Shown here piece after piece: positions 18,346 to 23,445 of a stretch of DNA of 64,000 nucleotides. The translations under genes were made by a program, and so were the position numbers. The stretch is from Microbacterium sp. (GTDB lineage: Bacteria > Actinomycetota > Actinomycetes > Actinomycetales > Microbacteriaceae): contig NZ_JAPSLI010000002.1 in the NCBI RefSeq assembly GCF_031180975.1, positions 186,001-250,000 of the forward strand, given 5' to 3'. Numbering within the stretch: position 1 is the first letter of the stretch; each line of letters begins with the position of its first letter. The notes under the pieces were generated by a model. The model worked only from the letters and a program-made list of their open reading frames with translations, was not told the origin of the DNA and did no database searches.

Positions 18346-19605
18346 GTGACTCCTGCCACGACCAAGAAGACCCGGACGACCACGACGAAGAAGGCCGCGG
18401 AGGCCGAGGCCCCCGAGCTCGACGCCGCCGCGGACGAGACCGCCGAGCCCAAGGCTCCGGCCCGCAAGACGGCCGCCAAGGCCGCTGCGAAGAAGGCGCC
18501 CGCCAAGCGCGCCGGCAAGAAGGACGACGAGACCGAGGTCGACGACGACGCCGTCGAGGCCGCCGGAGAGACCGACGACGAGGAGGGCGACAAGAAGCCC
18601 GCCTTCACCGAGCCGCTGCCCACCGGCGCCATCGTCATCTCGTCCAGTGACGAGGACGACGTCCCTGTGTACTCCACGCAGATCACCGGAGCCACCGCGG
18701 ACCCGGTCAAGGACTACCTCAAGCAGATCGGAAAGGTCGCGCTGCTGAACGCGGCCGAAGAGGTCGAGCTCGCCATGCGCATCGAGGCGGGTCTGTTCGC
18801 CGAGGAGAAGCTCTCGCACATGAGCGAGGCCGAGAAGTCCAGCCAGCTGGGGCTCGACCTGCAGTGGGTGGCCCGCGACGGCCAGCGCGCCAAGAGCCAC
18901 CTGCTCGGCGCGAACCTGCGTCTGGTCGTCTCGCTCGCCAAGCGCTACACCGGACGCGGGATGCAGTTCCTCGACCTGATCCAGGAGGGCAACCTCGGTC
19001 TGATCCGCGCGGTCGAGAAGTTCGACTACACCAAGGGCTTCAAGTTCTCCACCTACGCCACCTGGTGGATCCGTCAGGCGATCACCCGCGCCATGGCCGA
19101 CCAGGCCCGTACCATCCGCATCCCGGTGCACATGGTCGAGGTCATCAACAAGCTCGCCCGCGTGCAGCGGCAGATGCTGCAGGACCTCGGACGCGAACCC
19201 ACCCCCGAGGAGCTGTCGCGCGAACTCGACATGACCCCGGAGAAGGTCATCGAGGTTCAGAAGTACGGCCGAGAGCCGATCTCGCTGCACACGCCGCTCG
19301 GTGAGGACGGCGACAGCGAGTTCGGTGATCTCATCGAGGACACCGAGGCGGTCGTGCCCGCCGACGCCGTGGGCTTCACCATGCTGCAGCGTCAGCTCGA
19401 GCAGCTGCTCGACTCGCTCTCCGAGCGCGAGGCCGGCGTGATCCGGATGCGGTTCGGCCTCGGCGACGGACAGCCCAAGACCCTCGACCAGATCGGTGAC
19501 ACGTTCGGCGTGACGCGTGAGCGCATCCGCCAGATCGAGTCGAAGACGATGGCCAAGCTGCGCCATCCGAGCCGTTCGCAGTCGCTGCGGGACTACCTCG
19601 AATGA
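18346..19605 (+). CDS. sigA: Primary RNA polymerase sigma factor
   Basis: GTG start ([16 protein letters not shown]); [54 protein letters not shown]-terminus. Confidence 0.96.
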
Positions 19606-20921
19606 GCTCCGTCGCACCTCAGGCGCGCTCCGCCGGTCTGCGGTACGTCTTCCCGGTGCTGGCGGGCAAGCTCGCCCGTTTCGCGACCCGCCTTCGCGGC
19701 GGAGGGTCGGCGTTCCCGGGTTATCTGACGAACAAGCTCGCGCCGTCGCTGCTGCCCACCCTCGCCGATCAGTTCCCGTACGGCGTGGTGTTCGTGCTCG
19801 GCTCCAACGGCAAGACCACGACCACGCACATGGTCAGTGAGGCGCTGCGCGCGCACGGGTTGACCGTGTTCACCAACCCGACCGGTGCCAACCTTCCGCA
19901 GGGTGTCACCAGTGCACTGCTGGCGGACGCCACGCTCACCGGCCGGGTCCGCGCCGACGTCGCGGTCCTGGAGATCGACGAGGGGTACGCGGCCGACCTC
20001 GCCGACAGGCTCTCGCCGTCGGTGATCCTGTCGCTGAACGTGCAGGTGGACCAGCTGTACCGGTTCTATGAGACCGAGCGCGTGGCCGACATGATGCTCG
20101 ACGCGTCCCGCCGCGCCCACGCGCACGTGGTCGTCAACCGCGACGACCCGTACCTGAGCAAGATCGACGAGAGCGCCATGCGCGCCCCGGTGTCGTTCTT
20201 CGGCGTCGCCGAGGAGATCGTCGCGGCGTCCAAGCACGGTCTGGCCAACGCCGCTGACACGCGCAGCGGCAATGCCGGCACGCTGGCTCGTGAGGCGTAC
20301 TCCGAGGTGCGTCGGGTGCAGGCGCGCGACATCGTCGTGCGGGTGGCCGACGCCGACGTGCCGGTGCGCCTGCCCGCGCGGGGGCTGCACTACGCAGCCG
20401 ACGCGGCCGCCGCCCTGGCTGTCGCCTCCCGCGTCCTCGGCGACCGGTTCTCGACCGAGGCCGCGTCGACCGGCTTCTCGCGTATGGCGCCCGCGTACGG
20501 GCGCGGCGAGGTGATCCCGCTGCGGCGCGATCCCGCGGGCGAGAAGGTCGAGTTCGTGATGTTCAAGAACGCGCCGAGCCTGCAGATGAACCTCGATGCG
20601 CTGGACGAGACGCCGGAGCGTGTGCTGATGGCGATCGATGAGGGCACGCCGGACGTGTCCTGGCTGTACGACGTGGACTTCGACGCGCTGCACGCGGTCG
20701 ATGTGGTCACCGGCGAGAAGGCGTACCAGCTGGCGTTGGCGCTCGAGCACGCCGGCGTGCGCATCGGCGCCGTCGAACCCGACATGGAGAAGGCCGTCGC
20801 GTTGATGCGGGAGTTCCCGCAGACGGCGGCGGGGCGGCAGACCTGGTTCGTGAACTACGAACTCATGATGATCGGCCGCAGGCTTCTCGGCCATGGCGAC
20901 CAGGAGGTGGCGCGCCGATGA
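19602..20921 (+). CDS. MurT-like Mur ligase (lipid II isoglutaminyl synthase subunit homologue), divergent and Cys-free
   Basis: [19 protein letters not shown]-loop, [23 protein letters not shown] (DUF1727-like); no Cys residues; ATGA overlap with sigA. Confidence 0.88.
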
Positions 20922-21682
20922 CGGCATCCGTGCGCATCGCGCAGCTGTACCCCGTCGAGCTCGGCATCACCGGCGACCGCGGCAACGTCCGCGCCCTCCA
21001 GGTGCGGCTGGAGCGCGCCGGCGTCGCCGTCGACATCGTCCGAGTGGCGCCGGGGGACGCCTTCCCGGAGGCGCCGGACGTCGTCATCGTCGGCAACGGG
21101 CCGCTGTCCGCCATGCGGACGGTGCGCGACGACCTGGAACGCCACGCCGACGGCATCCGATCTTTCGTCGCGGACGGCGGTGCGCTGCTCGCCGTCGGCG
21201 GCGGTGCCGAGCTGCTCAGCCGGGGCGTGGCCGCCCTGGACGGCGAGTATCTCGACGGGCTGGGGGTCTTCCCGGCCGACGTCGTGCGCACCCGTGAGCG
21301 CAAGGTGGGGTACATCGTCGCCCAGTCGCCGCTGGGACGCGTGATCGGGTTCGAGGACCATGCGAGCGAGTGGACCGTCGACGACGCGGCTTCGGCGTTC
21401 GGGCGTGTGGTCTCCGGGCGCGGCAGTTTTGCGCTGCCGTCCGGCGCCGGCCGCGGTGAACTGGTCCGCGCGGGCAACGCTTTCGCATCGAACGTGCAGG
21501 GGCCGCTGCTGCCGCTCAACCCCGAGCTGACCGTCGGGATCCTGCAGACCGTCGCCGCGCGGCGTGGTGCATCCTGGCAGCTCGGGGCCGGTGTGGAGGC
21601 CCTGGACGGCTACGCCGCAGGCGCGCGCGCGAAGATCGAGCAGCTCGTGCACGACAAGGTCTTCAACACCATCCAGCTCTGA
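20918..21682 (+). CDS. GatD-like class I glutamine amidotransferase homologue lacking catalytic residues
   Basis: AQLYPVELGITGDRGNVRAL, VIGFEDHASEW, QGPLLPLNP; LLAVGGGAELL replaces the ICGGYQLLG nucleophile motif; 4-bp overlap with MurT-like gene. Confidence 0.88.
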   Translation: MTASVRIAQLYPVELGITGDRGNVRALQVRLERAGVAVDIVRVAPGDAFPEAPDVVIVGNGPLSAMRTVRDDLERHADGIRSFVADGGALLAVGGGAELLSRGVAALDGEYLDGLGVFPADVVRTRERKVGYIVAQSPLGRVIGFEDHASEWTVDDAASAFGRVVSGRGSFALPSGAGRGELVRAGNAFASNVQGPLLPLNPELTVGILQTVAARRGASWQLGAGVEALDGYAAGARAKIEQLVHDKVFNTIQL

Positions 21683-21697
21683 GCCCCGGGGGACCAG

Positions 21698-22414
21698 ATG
21701 GAGCACTGCAGTGCGCTGCCGACCGCGGTCCTGTCGCGGTCCGCGCTGACGGCCCGCGCGGCCCGGCTGGTGGAGGGTCGTGTGGTCGACCTGCGCCACG
21801 ACGCCTACGGTCACGGGCTGGACGGGGTGGCGCAGTTGGTGGCGGATGCCGGGGCCGCGGCGATCCTGGTGGACGACGACGCCGCCTCCGAGCGCGTCCG
21901 GGCGGCCGGCGTCCGCGCTCTCACCGATCCGGACCGCGCGCGCGTCACGGCAGAAGTCGACCCGGGCGCCCTGTTCGGCATCCCGGGCGCGGGGGACACG
22001 GTCCCCGCACGTGACGCGCCGCCGGTGATGCGCCTCGAGGGCCAGGTGCTGTCCACGAAGCCGCTCCACGCCGGCGAGGCGGTCTCGTACGGGTACACGC
22101 ACCGGGCGCCGCACGACACGCGTGTCGCGCTGGTCACCGGCGGCTATGCGCAGGGCATCGTGCGCGCCCTCGGCAACCGTGTGCGCGTCGAGGTGGCGGG
22201 AGCGATGCGCCCGGTGGTCGGACGGATCGCGATGGACGTGTGCGTGGTCGATCTCGAAGGTCACGACGTCGAGGCCGGCGCGCCGGTGGTCTATTTCGGC
22301 GGGGACGGCCCGGCGTGCGACGCTCTCGCGTCGTGGGAGGCGGCGACCGGGATGTCCGCGCTGGAGCTCGTCGTCGTGGTCGGCCGGCATGTGCGACGGG
22401 AGTGGGTGGCATGA
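21698..22414 (+). CDS. Truncated alanine-racemase-like protein (C-terminal domain with catalytic Tyr; PLP Lys replaced by Arg)
   Basis: VVDLRHDAYGHG (Lys to Arg) then VSYGYTHRAPHDTRVALVTGGYAQG and VVGRIAMDVCVVDL. Confidence 0.85.
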   Translation: MEHCSALPTAVLSRSALTARAARLVEGRVVDLRHDAYGHGLDGVAQLVADAGAAAILVDDDAASERVRAAGVRALTDPDRARVTAEVDPGALFGIPGAGDTVPARDAPPVMRLEGQVLSTKPLHAGEAVSYGYTHRAPHDTRVALVTGGYAQGIVRALGNRVRVEVAGAMRPVVGRIAMDVCVVDLEGHDVEAGAPVVYFGGDGPACDALASWEAATGMSALELVVVVGRHVRREWVA

Positions 22415-23445
22415 GCGCACCGGTGCTGGAGATCTCGCGGTCGGCGTTCCGTAGCAACGTACAGGCCGTGCGGGAGCGGATCGCCCCGTCCGACCTGATG
22501 CTGGTGATGAAGGACGACGCGTATGGTCACGGCGTCGACTGGGCGGTGCCCATCGCCGTCGAGTGCGGTGTGGAGTGGTTCGGTGCCTACGACGTCGACA
22601 CGGCGCTGCGCATCCGCGCGCTCAGCGACGGCCGGATCTTCGCCTGGGCGACCTCCACCCCGCAGGAGGCCGAGCGTGCGGTGTCCGCCGGCATCGACCT
22701 CGGCGTCGGCTCGGCCGGCTATCTGCGCGGTGTCATCGCCGCCGCCGAGCGGCTGGGCGTGCGCGCCGACGTGCACCTCAAGATCGACACCGGCCTGCAC
22801 CGCAACGGCTTTCGCCCGGAGGAGTGGGACCAGGCCGTGGCGATCGCCCGCGAGGCGGAGATCCGCGGCATCGTGCACGTCGCCGGCGTGTGGAGTCATC
22901 TCGCGGAAGCCAGTGACGAGGAGGACGACCAGTCGCGCGTCGCGTTCCTGTCGGCGGTGGCACGTCTGCAGGATGCCGGGGGATCACCCGATGTGCTGCA
23001 CCTGACCGCGTCGGCGGCGTCCTGGTGGCGCCCCGAACTGCGCGGCTCGCTGTGCCGCATCGGAGCGTTCTGCTACGGCATCCGCTCCGCCGACGGGCCG
23101 CACCTGGACGGCGTGCGGCCGATCGCCCGGCTGGTGGCGCGGGTGACCCGCATCACGGACCAGGGGGTCGAGGTCGGCGTGGGCGCCTACCACGGACTGC
23201 CTTCGACGTTGCGCGGAGTCGGCGTCGGGACGCCGCGGGGAGTTCGGCGAATCGTGCGGGTCGACGCCGACACGACAGTGGTGGAGTCGTGGCCGGGCGC
23301 CGCGGCGGGAGACGAGGTCGTCGTGTTCGGCGCGGGTGAGCAGGGGGAAGCGGATGCCACCCGCCTCGCCGAGCACATCGACACGGTCGGCGAGGAGATC
23401 CTCACCCGCCTCACGCCGGCAGTCCGCCGGGTGCTGCGCGACTGA
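22411..23445 (+). CDS. Alanine-racemase-like protein with intact PLP barrel and degenerate C-terminal domain
   Basis: LMLVMKDDAYGHGVDW, VHLKIDTGLHRNGF, LCRIGAFCYGI; no VSYG Tyr or MD motif; ATGA overlap with the preceding gene. Confidence 0.88.
   Translation: MSAPVLEISRSAFRSNVQAVRERIAPSDLMLVMKDDAYGHGVDWAVPIAVECGVEWFGAYDVDTALRIRALSDGRIFAWATSTPQEAERAVSAGIDLGVGSAGYLRGVIAAAERLGVRADVHLKIDTGLHRNGFRPEEWDQAVAIAREAEIRGIVHVAGVWSHLAEASDEEDDQSRVAFLSAVARLQDAGGSPDVLHLTASAASWWRPELRGSLCRIGAFCYGIRSADGPHLDGVRPIARLVARVTRITDQGVEVGVGAYHGLPSTLRGVGVGTPRGVRRIVRVDADTTVVESWPGAAAGDEVVVFGAGEQGEADATRLAEHIDTVGEEILTRLTPAVRRVLRD

Follow-up and report, generated by a model that had tools for sequence, protein, structure and literature searches.

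Adjacent alanine-racemase-like genes with complementary losses in Microbacteriaceae: a probable heterodimeric racemase

Alanine racemase (Alr) is a textbook example of a homodimer and a target of antibiotics, as with D-cycloserine. The family, which is recognised by the domains PF01168 and PF00842 and by the NCBIfam equivalog model TIGR00492, and for which structures such as those from M. tuberculosis (1xfc) and Streptomyces lavendulae (1vfh) are available, builds each active site from two chains, one of which contributes Lys39 and the residue at position 354, while the other contributes Tyr265', Met312' and Asp313' (PMC3485190). The roles of Lys39 and Tyr265' are described in PMC3485190 and PMC4517790, which also indicate that Tyr354, together with Tyr265', determines the specificity for alanine, and that enzymes accepting lysine are found without Tyr354. 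Charged residues at this position reduced the alanine activity of AlrTt (PMC4517790), and the racemases Lyr and Bar (4dza, 4dyj), which have the Alr fold, accept basic amino acids and prefer lysine, carry Thr391 or Ala393 there (PMC3485190). The literature searched contained no account of a heterodimeric Alr.

One other system that may be compared is the SPT1/SPT2 pair (LCB1/LCB2) of serine palmitoyltransferase, a heterodimer of paralogues in which one of the chains has no PLP lysine and a single site is presumed, the bacterial form of the enzyme being homodimeric (PMC6148460). The present locus, found in a window of 64,000 nucleotides (the whole stretch of DNA that was analysed) from a Microbacterium sp., contains two adjacent Alr-like genes, referred to here as P1 and P2, whose features are collected in Table 1. 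Both open reading frames, which had been located together with their ATGA overlap in a sequence-only reading of this DNA, were recovered at those positions on the forward strand. Homologues of both subunits of the lipid II isoglutaminyl synthase MurT-GatD (6fqb, 6gs2) lie directly upstream, where they constitute the only MurT-GatD of the genome. Given that the MurT and GatD genes are also joined by an ATGA overlap, and that only 15 bases separate GatD from P1, the four genes look like a single operon, with MurT in the first position. Elsewhere, the genome has a separate and complete Alr, in which all the active-site residues are present, including Tyr354.

Table 1. Genes and key residues of the P1-P2 locus, in positions of the window.
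Feature	Positions	Strand	Description
MurT-like Mur ligase gene	19602..20921	+	Pfam MurT_C and Mur_ligase_M; PDB MurT 7q8e, 1.4e-28
GatD-like gene	20918..21682	+	Product without glutaminase Cys and His; PDB GatD 6fqb, 8e-18
P1 gene	21698..22414	+	Short subunit, 238 aa; half barrel and complete Ala_racemase_C domain
P1 R33 codon	21794..21796	+	PLP lysine position, Lys39 of B. stearothermophilus Alr
P1 Y131	22088..22090	+	Equivalent of catalytic Tyr265; 138/138; invariant alignment column
P1 M179-D180	22232..22237	+	Equivalents of Met312-Asp313; AMD 129, AMN 7, SMD 2 of 138
P2 gene	22411..23445	+	Long subunit of 344 aa, with PLP-Lys in a complete barrel; Tyr265 loop and MD motif missing from C domain
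P2 K34	22510..22512	+	PLP lysine, Lys39 equivalent; 139/139; invariant in P2 alignment
P2 Tyr265-loop deletion site (canonical ~255-285)	23152..23184, limits approximate	+	From alignment to the genome's own Alr
P2 E328	23392..23394	+	Tyr354 specificity position

The short subunit, P1, has a single Pfam match, to Ala_racemase_C (PF00842, 3.6e-29), and its score against TIGR00492 (94.7 bits) is under the 168-bit cut-off. Around the position of the PLP lysine it reads VVDLRHDAYGHG, in which R33 replaces the lysine, and yet it retains both the VSYGYTHRAP motif that includes Y131 and the GRIAMD motif, all of which had been noticed from the letters alone. The accompanying claim that P1 lacks most of the barrel was only partly right, as half of the barrel is gone but its initial 3-4 beta/alpha units remain (residues 1 to ~93). 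The AF2 single-chain model (pLDDT 94.5, pTM 0.90) is compact and combines these first barrel units with the whole of the C domain, and the best Foldseek matches of P1 were all Alr-type racemases, with TMq values of at most 0.82.

The long subunit, P2, matches Ala_racemase_N (PF01168) at 1.6e-46, and its match in the C domain is partial, covering profile positions 39-126, with the first 38 missing; its TIGR00492 score of 122 bits is also under the cut-off. The single-chain AF2 model has a pLDDT of 96.8 and a pTM of 0.93, and Foldseek matched it to Alr with a TMq of 0.92. K34 is accompanied in the locus protein by R131, H163 and R216, and the earlier observation that P2 keeps this lysine without the VSYG Tyr and the MD motif holds, the Tyr265 loop and the MD motif being indeed absent. 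To this can be added the Glu found at the position of Tyr354, which had not been remarked upon.

Relatives were gathered from 200 Microbacteriaceae genomes and from the GTDB species genomes, and the adjacent pairs were extracted, no weight being given to the apparently frameshifted copies L081, L102 and L137. Approximately 138 distinct sequence pairs were obtained, from many genera of the Microbacteriaceae, in which P1 and P2 are always adjacent, except in copies interrupted at the ends of contigs, and 101 of 137 pairs have the 4-base ATGA overlap in common. No natural P1-P2 fusion protein was seen, and one species, M. sufflavum, has two separate pairs in a single genome (L074, L133). Outside the family, no adjacent P1-P2 pair appeared in 274 genomes of the order among the matches listed, and the sampled genomes of the order's other families have mostly one Alr and no pair of this type.

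Every one of the 138 distinct P1 sequences has the catalytic Tyr, and every one of the 139 distinct P2 sequences has the PLP Lys, the P2 sequences also retaining the equivalents of Tyr43, Arg136, His166 and Arg219. None of these 139 P2 keeps the Tyr265 loop; the VSYG Tyr that seemed to occur in two of them (L106, L113) was rejected as a misaligned GYxDG motif located after the deleted loop. Position 354 is acidic in every P2 that reaches it (Glu in 101 and Asp in 34 of the 139 sequences, with 4 truncated), and the equivalent position of P1 is free to vary, being occupied by Ala, Leu, Gly, Pro or others. Of 120 aligned pairs, 106 (~88%) have Arg at the Lys39 position of P1, and where the motif was found, the residue was R in 101, S in 4, T in 3, G in 3, A in 2, D in 2 and P in 1, with no Lys seen in any of the 138 distinct P1 wherever the motif was readable. 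Over 63 pairs of related sequences, the median dN/dS was 0.178 for P1 and 0.16 for P2, and both genes are, by this measure, under purifying selection.

Five features may be taken to define an Alr, namely, complete N and C domains in one chain, the PLP lysine and the catalytic Tyr in the same polypeptide (which would make a homodimer active), a score above the TIGR00492 cut-off, Tyr at position 354, and an alpha/beta barrel followed by a C-terminal beta domain. The first three are found in neither P1 nor P2, the fourth is replaced by Glu or Asp in P2, and the fifth is present, in complete form in P2 and with a half-barrel in P1. The pair shares with Alr the fold, the PLP site and the Lys/Tyr two-base arrangement across what would be a head-to-tail dimer, whereas it differs from this homodimer with two sites in consisting of two different chains, each of which is missing a half-site, and in having Glu/Asp in P2 rather than Tyr354. 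Taken strictly, P1-P2 falls outside the Alr family, as defining features are missing, and it is well supported that the pair operates as an Alr whose parts are spread over two chains, its activity being inferred. Lyr and Bar resemble P2 in having a residue other than Tyr at 354, but they are homodimers with no loss of a half-site. At the level of sequence, the pair also resembles SPT1/SPT2, given that P1 is without the PLP Lys, P2 possesses it and the two are jointly conserved, a physical heterodimer that needs both subunits being inferred, although the SPT proteins have an unrelated fold (type I PLP), are eukaryotic, catalyse a different reaction and present no erosion of a barrel, which reduces the comparison to one of analogy.

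Given that the residues of the Alr site come from two chains, P1 and P2 are each left with exactly their own half of the composite site. We consider it highly probable, though it has not been shown biochemically, that the two proteins form an obligate heterodimeric PLP-dependent racemase of the Alr fold with one composite site. Alr is normally a head-to-tail dimer with two identical sites, each composed of Lys39, Tyr43, Arg136, His166, Arg219 and residue 354 from one chain and of Tyr265', Met312' and Asp313' from its partner. One such site would survive in the heterodimer, with P2 giving the PLP lysine and the pocket, and P1 giving the Met-Asp motif together with the catalytic Tyr. The second, mirror-image site, in which Arg33 of P1 would face the Tyr-less C domain of P2, would be dead, and P1 would thus be free to lose half of its barrel. 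The proposal that the complementary defects fit a heterodimer had already been made in the sequence-only reading, and it now finds support in the invariant residues, the purifying selection and the repeated origin described below, in the absence of data on interaction, PLP or activity; the physical pairing, the 1:1 stoichiometry, the binding of PLP and the activity are all inferred. A conserved D-x-R-x-DAYGHG loop is also observed in P1 (residues 31-40, positions 21788-21817), in spite of the supposedly dead half-site, and is not explained by the heterodimer model.

Tandem intact Alr genes are found in many Microbacteriaceae, in which position 354 is occupied by Tyr (or Trp) in copy A and by Glu or Asp in copy B, the latter as seen in the second copy of the loci L150-L169 and L187. 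A graded series leads from these tandem intact pairs to a full-length P1 that has no Lys beside a Tyr-less P2, and then to the short P1. In the tree of full-length proteins, the Lys-less full-length P1-like proteins group with copy A, and P2 joins copy B at two distinct points. Once the trait columns had been taken out, a single P2 clade was rejected (p-AU 0.0005), which implies that the Tyr was lost at least twice and rules out, under the model used, a single origin of the split in the case of P2. The C-domain tree, which has few columns, brings all the P1 sequences together with modest support (94), and P1 may have had one or two origins, as a single loss of the Lys followed by the gene conversion of B copies is not excluded. 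Gene conversion between the copies could also be disturbing these trees. As far as can be judged from the P2 sequences, which do not form a single clade, and from the housekeeping-type split pair of the genus g78, the complementary split has arisen more than once.

Some other variants were observed in this group of proteins. The first copy in some of the tandem-Alr lineages has AMN in place of AMD, at a position that corresponds, according to the title of PMC10288493, to the D-cycloserine-resistance change D322N of the M. tuberculosis Alr. Two genomes (G166, G108) encode an Alr-like protein (L222, L223) with Phe43, SMD and His354, in a KFRHRYSMDH pattern; a P1-P2 pair and a further Alr are present in the same genomes.

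In the genus g78 (G140, G193 and G077; loci L212, L213 and L221), the housekeeping-type Alr is itself divided in complementary fashion into a second pair, of separate derivation, whose genes stand in the opposite order to P1-P2. The long chain keeps the Lys and Tyr354, reads ESD in place of AMD and is without the Tyr265 loop, and the short overlapping chain, which reads IDMTADAYGHG, with Thr for Lys, keeps VSYG and AMD and has the same part of the barrel deleted as P1. This short chain falls outside the P1 group in the C-domain tree. Its D-M-T-x-DAYGHG loop, which has been retained, may be compared with the D-x-R-x-DAYGHG loop of P1. The three g78 genomes, which are 99% complete, have exactly four Ala_racemase_C domains, all of them in two split pairs, with no intact Alr left and no D-amino-acid transaminase above the cut-off. 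Given that peptidoglycan requires D-Ala and that no intact Alr is present, the split pair must be active, unless D-Ala is obtained from some other source, and an unrecognised transaminase could be one. As an indirect genetic argument, the g78 genomes provide the strongest indirect evidence that split pairs work as heterodimers.

The invariant acidic residue at position 354 of P2 suggests, by inference, a basic substrate, although no enzyme with Glu/Asp at this position and known diamino activity was found in the literature searched, and the Thr or Ala that Lyr and Bar have there, with their preference for lysine, speaks against it. The wide list of substrates first put forward for the pair can be narrowed to a basic diamino acid, a choice that we favour with some reservation, and the reaction is inferred, without enzyme data, to be most likely the one that turns L-ornithine into the D-ornithine of the type B2 interpeptide bridge. 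This inference is based on the Glu/Asp354 of P2, the MurT-GatD neighbours, the separate intact Alr of most carriers and the D-ornithine known from the walls of carriers that have a species name. D-ornithine has been reported in both M. galbinum and M. sufflavum (PMC10757982), and both carry P1-P2 (L115 in the former, L074 and L133 in the latter). The pair is absent from three of the 13 sampled genomes of the genus, as expected if the species with L-lysine (B1) have no need of it, the correlation between pair and wall type being untested. In 48 loci P1-P2 adjoins MurT-GatD, the genes taking several different orientations, and this neighbourhood ties the pair to wall synthesis; MurT-GatD as a strict requirement was ruled out by some carriers without a recognisable GatD (G165, G278, G292).

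The heterodimer may, on the other hand, be real and act not on a diamino acid but on a neutral one, for instance alanine or serine, which would make it a second or condition-specific Alr. This is the alternative that survives best, and it is in keeping with the nearest fold matches, which are alanine racemases, and with the g78 split pair, which is able to fill the alanine role, but we regard it as unlikely, as the genome already owns an intact Alr with Tyr354, and P2 has Glu/Asp at 354 throughout, in contrast with the Tyr354 of the pair that replaces Alr in g78. There is much less room for the possibility that P2 is catalytic alone, or performs some other PLP reaction, with P1 as a prozyme-like regulator or stabiliser whose Tyr lies outside the P2 site. 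While every PLP-side residue is present in P2, and pseudoenzyme activators are known, SPT1 itself having initially been considered regulatory (PMC6148460), it is the residues of the partner site that P1 keeps (Tyr and Met in 100%), its own PLP side having been lost, and a protein with a merely regulatory role would have no use for the catalytic Tyr that all 138 sequences have. The reading of P1 and P2 as decaying alr duplicates, that is, pseudogenes, or as a sequencing error, to which the missing half of the P1 barrel and the catalytic residues missing from each protein might lend itself, is ruled out by the dN/dS of ~0.17 in both genes, the invariant residues and the overlap conserved in many genera, and by the single Alr, without a pair of this type, in most of the genomes sampled from the order's other families.

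The neighbouring GatD has LAVGGG and VQGP where the solved GatD have LAICGG and FHGP, so that the class I glutaminase Cys is replaced by Gly and the His by Gln. The Cys is missing in 48 of the 48 GatD linked to P1-P2 and in most of the other Microbacteriaceae sampled, and is kept in six Microbacteriaceae and in 29 of the 29 readable GatD from the order's remaining families. A loss specific to the carriers of P1-P2 was considered and rejected, given that the Cys is absent from most Microbacteriaceae in the sample, those with only one Alr among them. In this, the GatD of the Microbacteriaceae mostly differ from the MurT-GatD synthase, and the release of ammonia from glutamine is unlikely in the absence of the glutaminase Cys. 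Nothing relevant on MurT/GatD in the Microbacteriaceae was found in the literature searched.

In type B peptidoglycan, the bridge sits on the alpha-carboxyl of D-Glu, which is the target of MurT-GatD. This may suggest, speculatively, that a MurT with a Cys-less GatD joins an amino acid rather than ammonia. A broader and doubtful hypothesis, which we put forward only as a possibility, is that the four genes are one type B cross-bridge operon, in which the heterodimeric racemase would produce D-ornithine (or D-Dab/D-Lys) and MurT-GatD, no longer a glutamine-dependent amidase, would attach an amino acid of the bridge at the D-Glu alpha-carboxyl, with the complementary splitting of the Alr fold having occurred at least three times in the Microbacteriaceae.

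Type B2 peptidoglycan contains a D-diamino acid that has long served as a taxonomic character in the Microbacteriaceae, and no D-ornithine racemase in Microbacterium, nor any enzyme responsible for this D-diamino acid, is named in the literature searched. If the substrate proves to be the one that leads to D-ornithine or another diamino acid, P1-P2 would be the enzyme that makes the type B2 D-diamino acid. Finally, a natural heterodimer with one site, accompanied by living intermediates and by independent repeats, would, if true, represent a clean case of the passage from a homodimer to an obligate heterodimer, in which gene duplication would have been followed by complementary loss.
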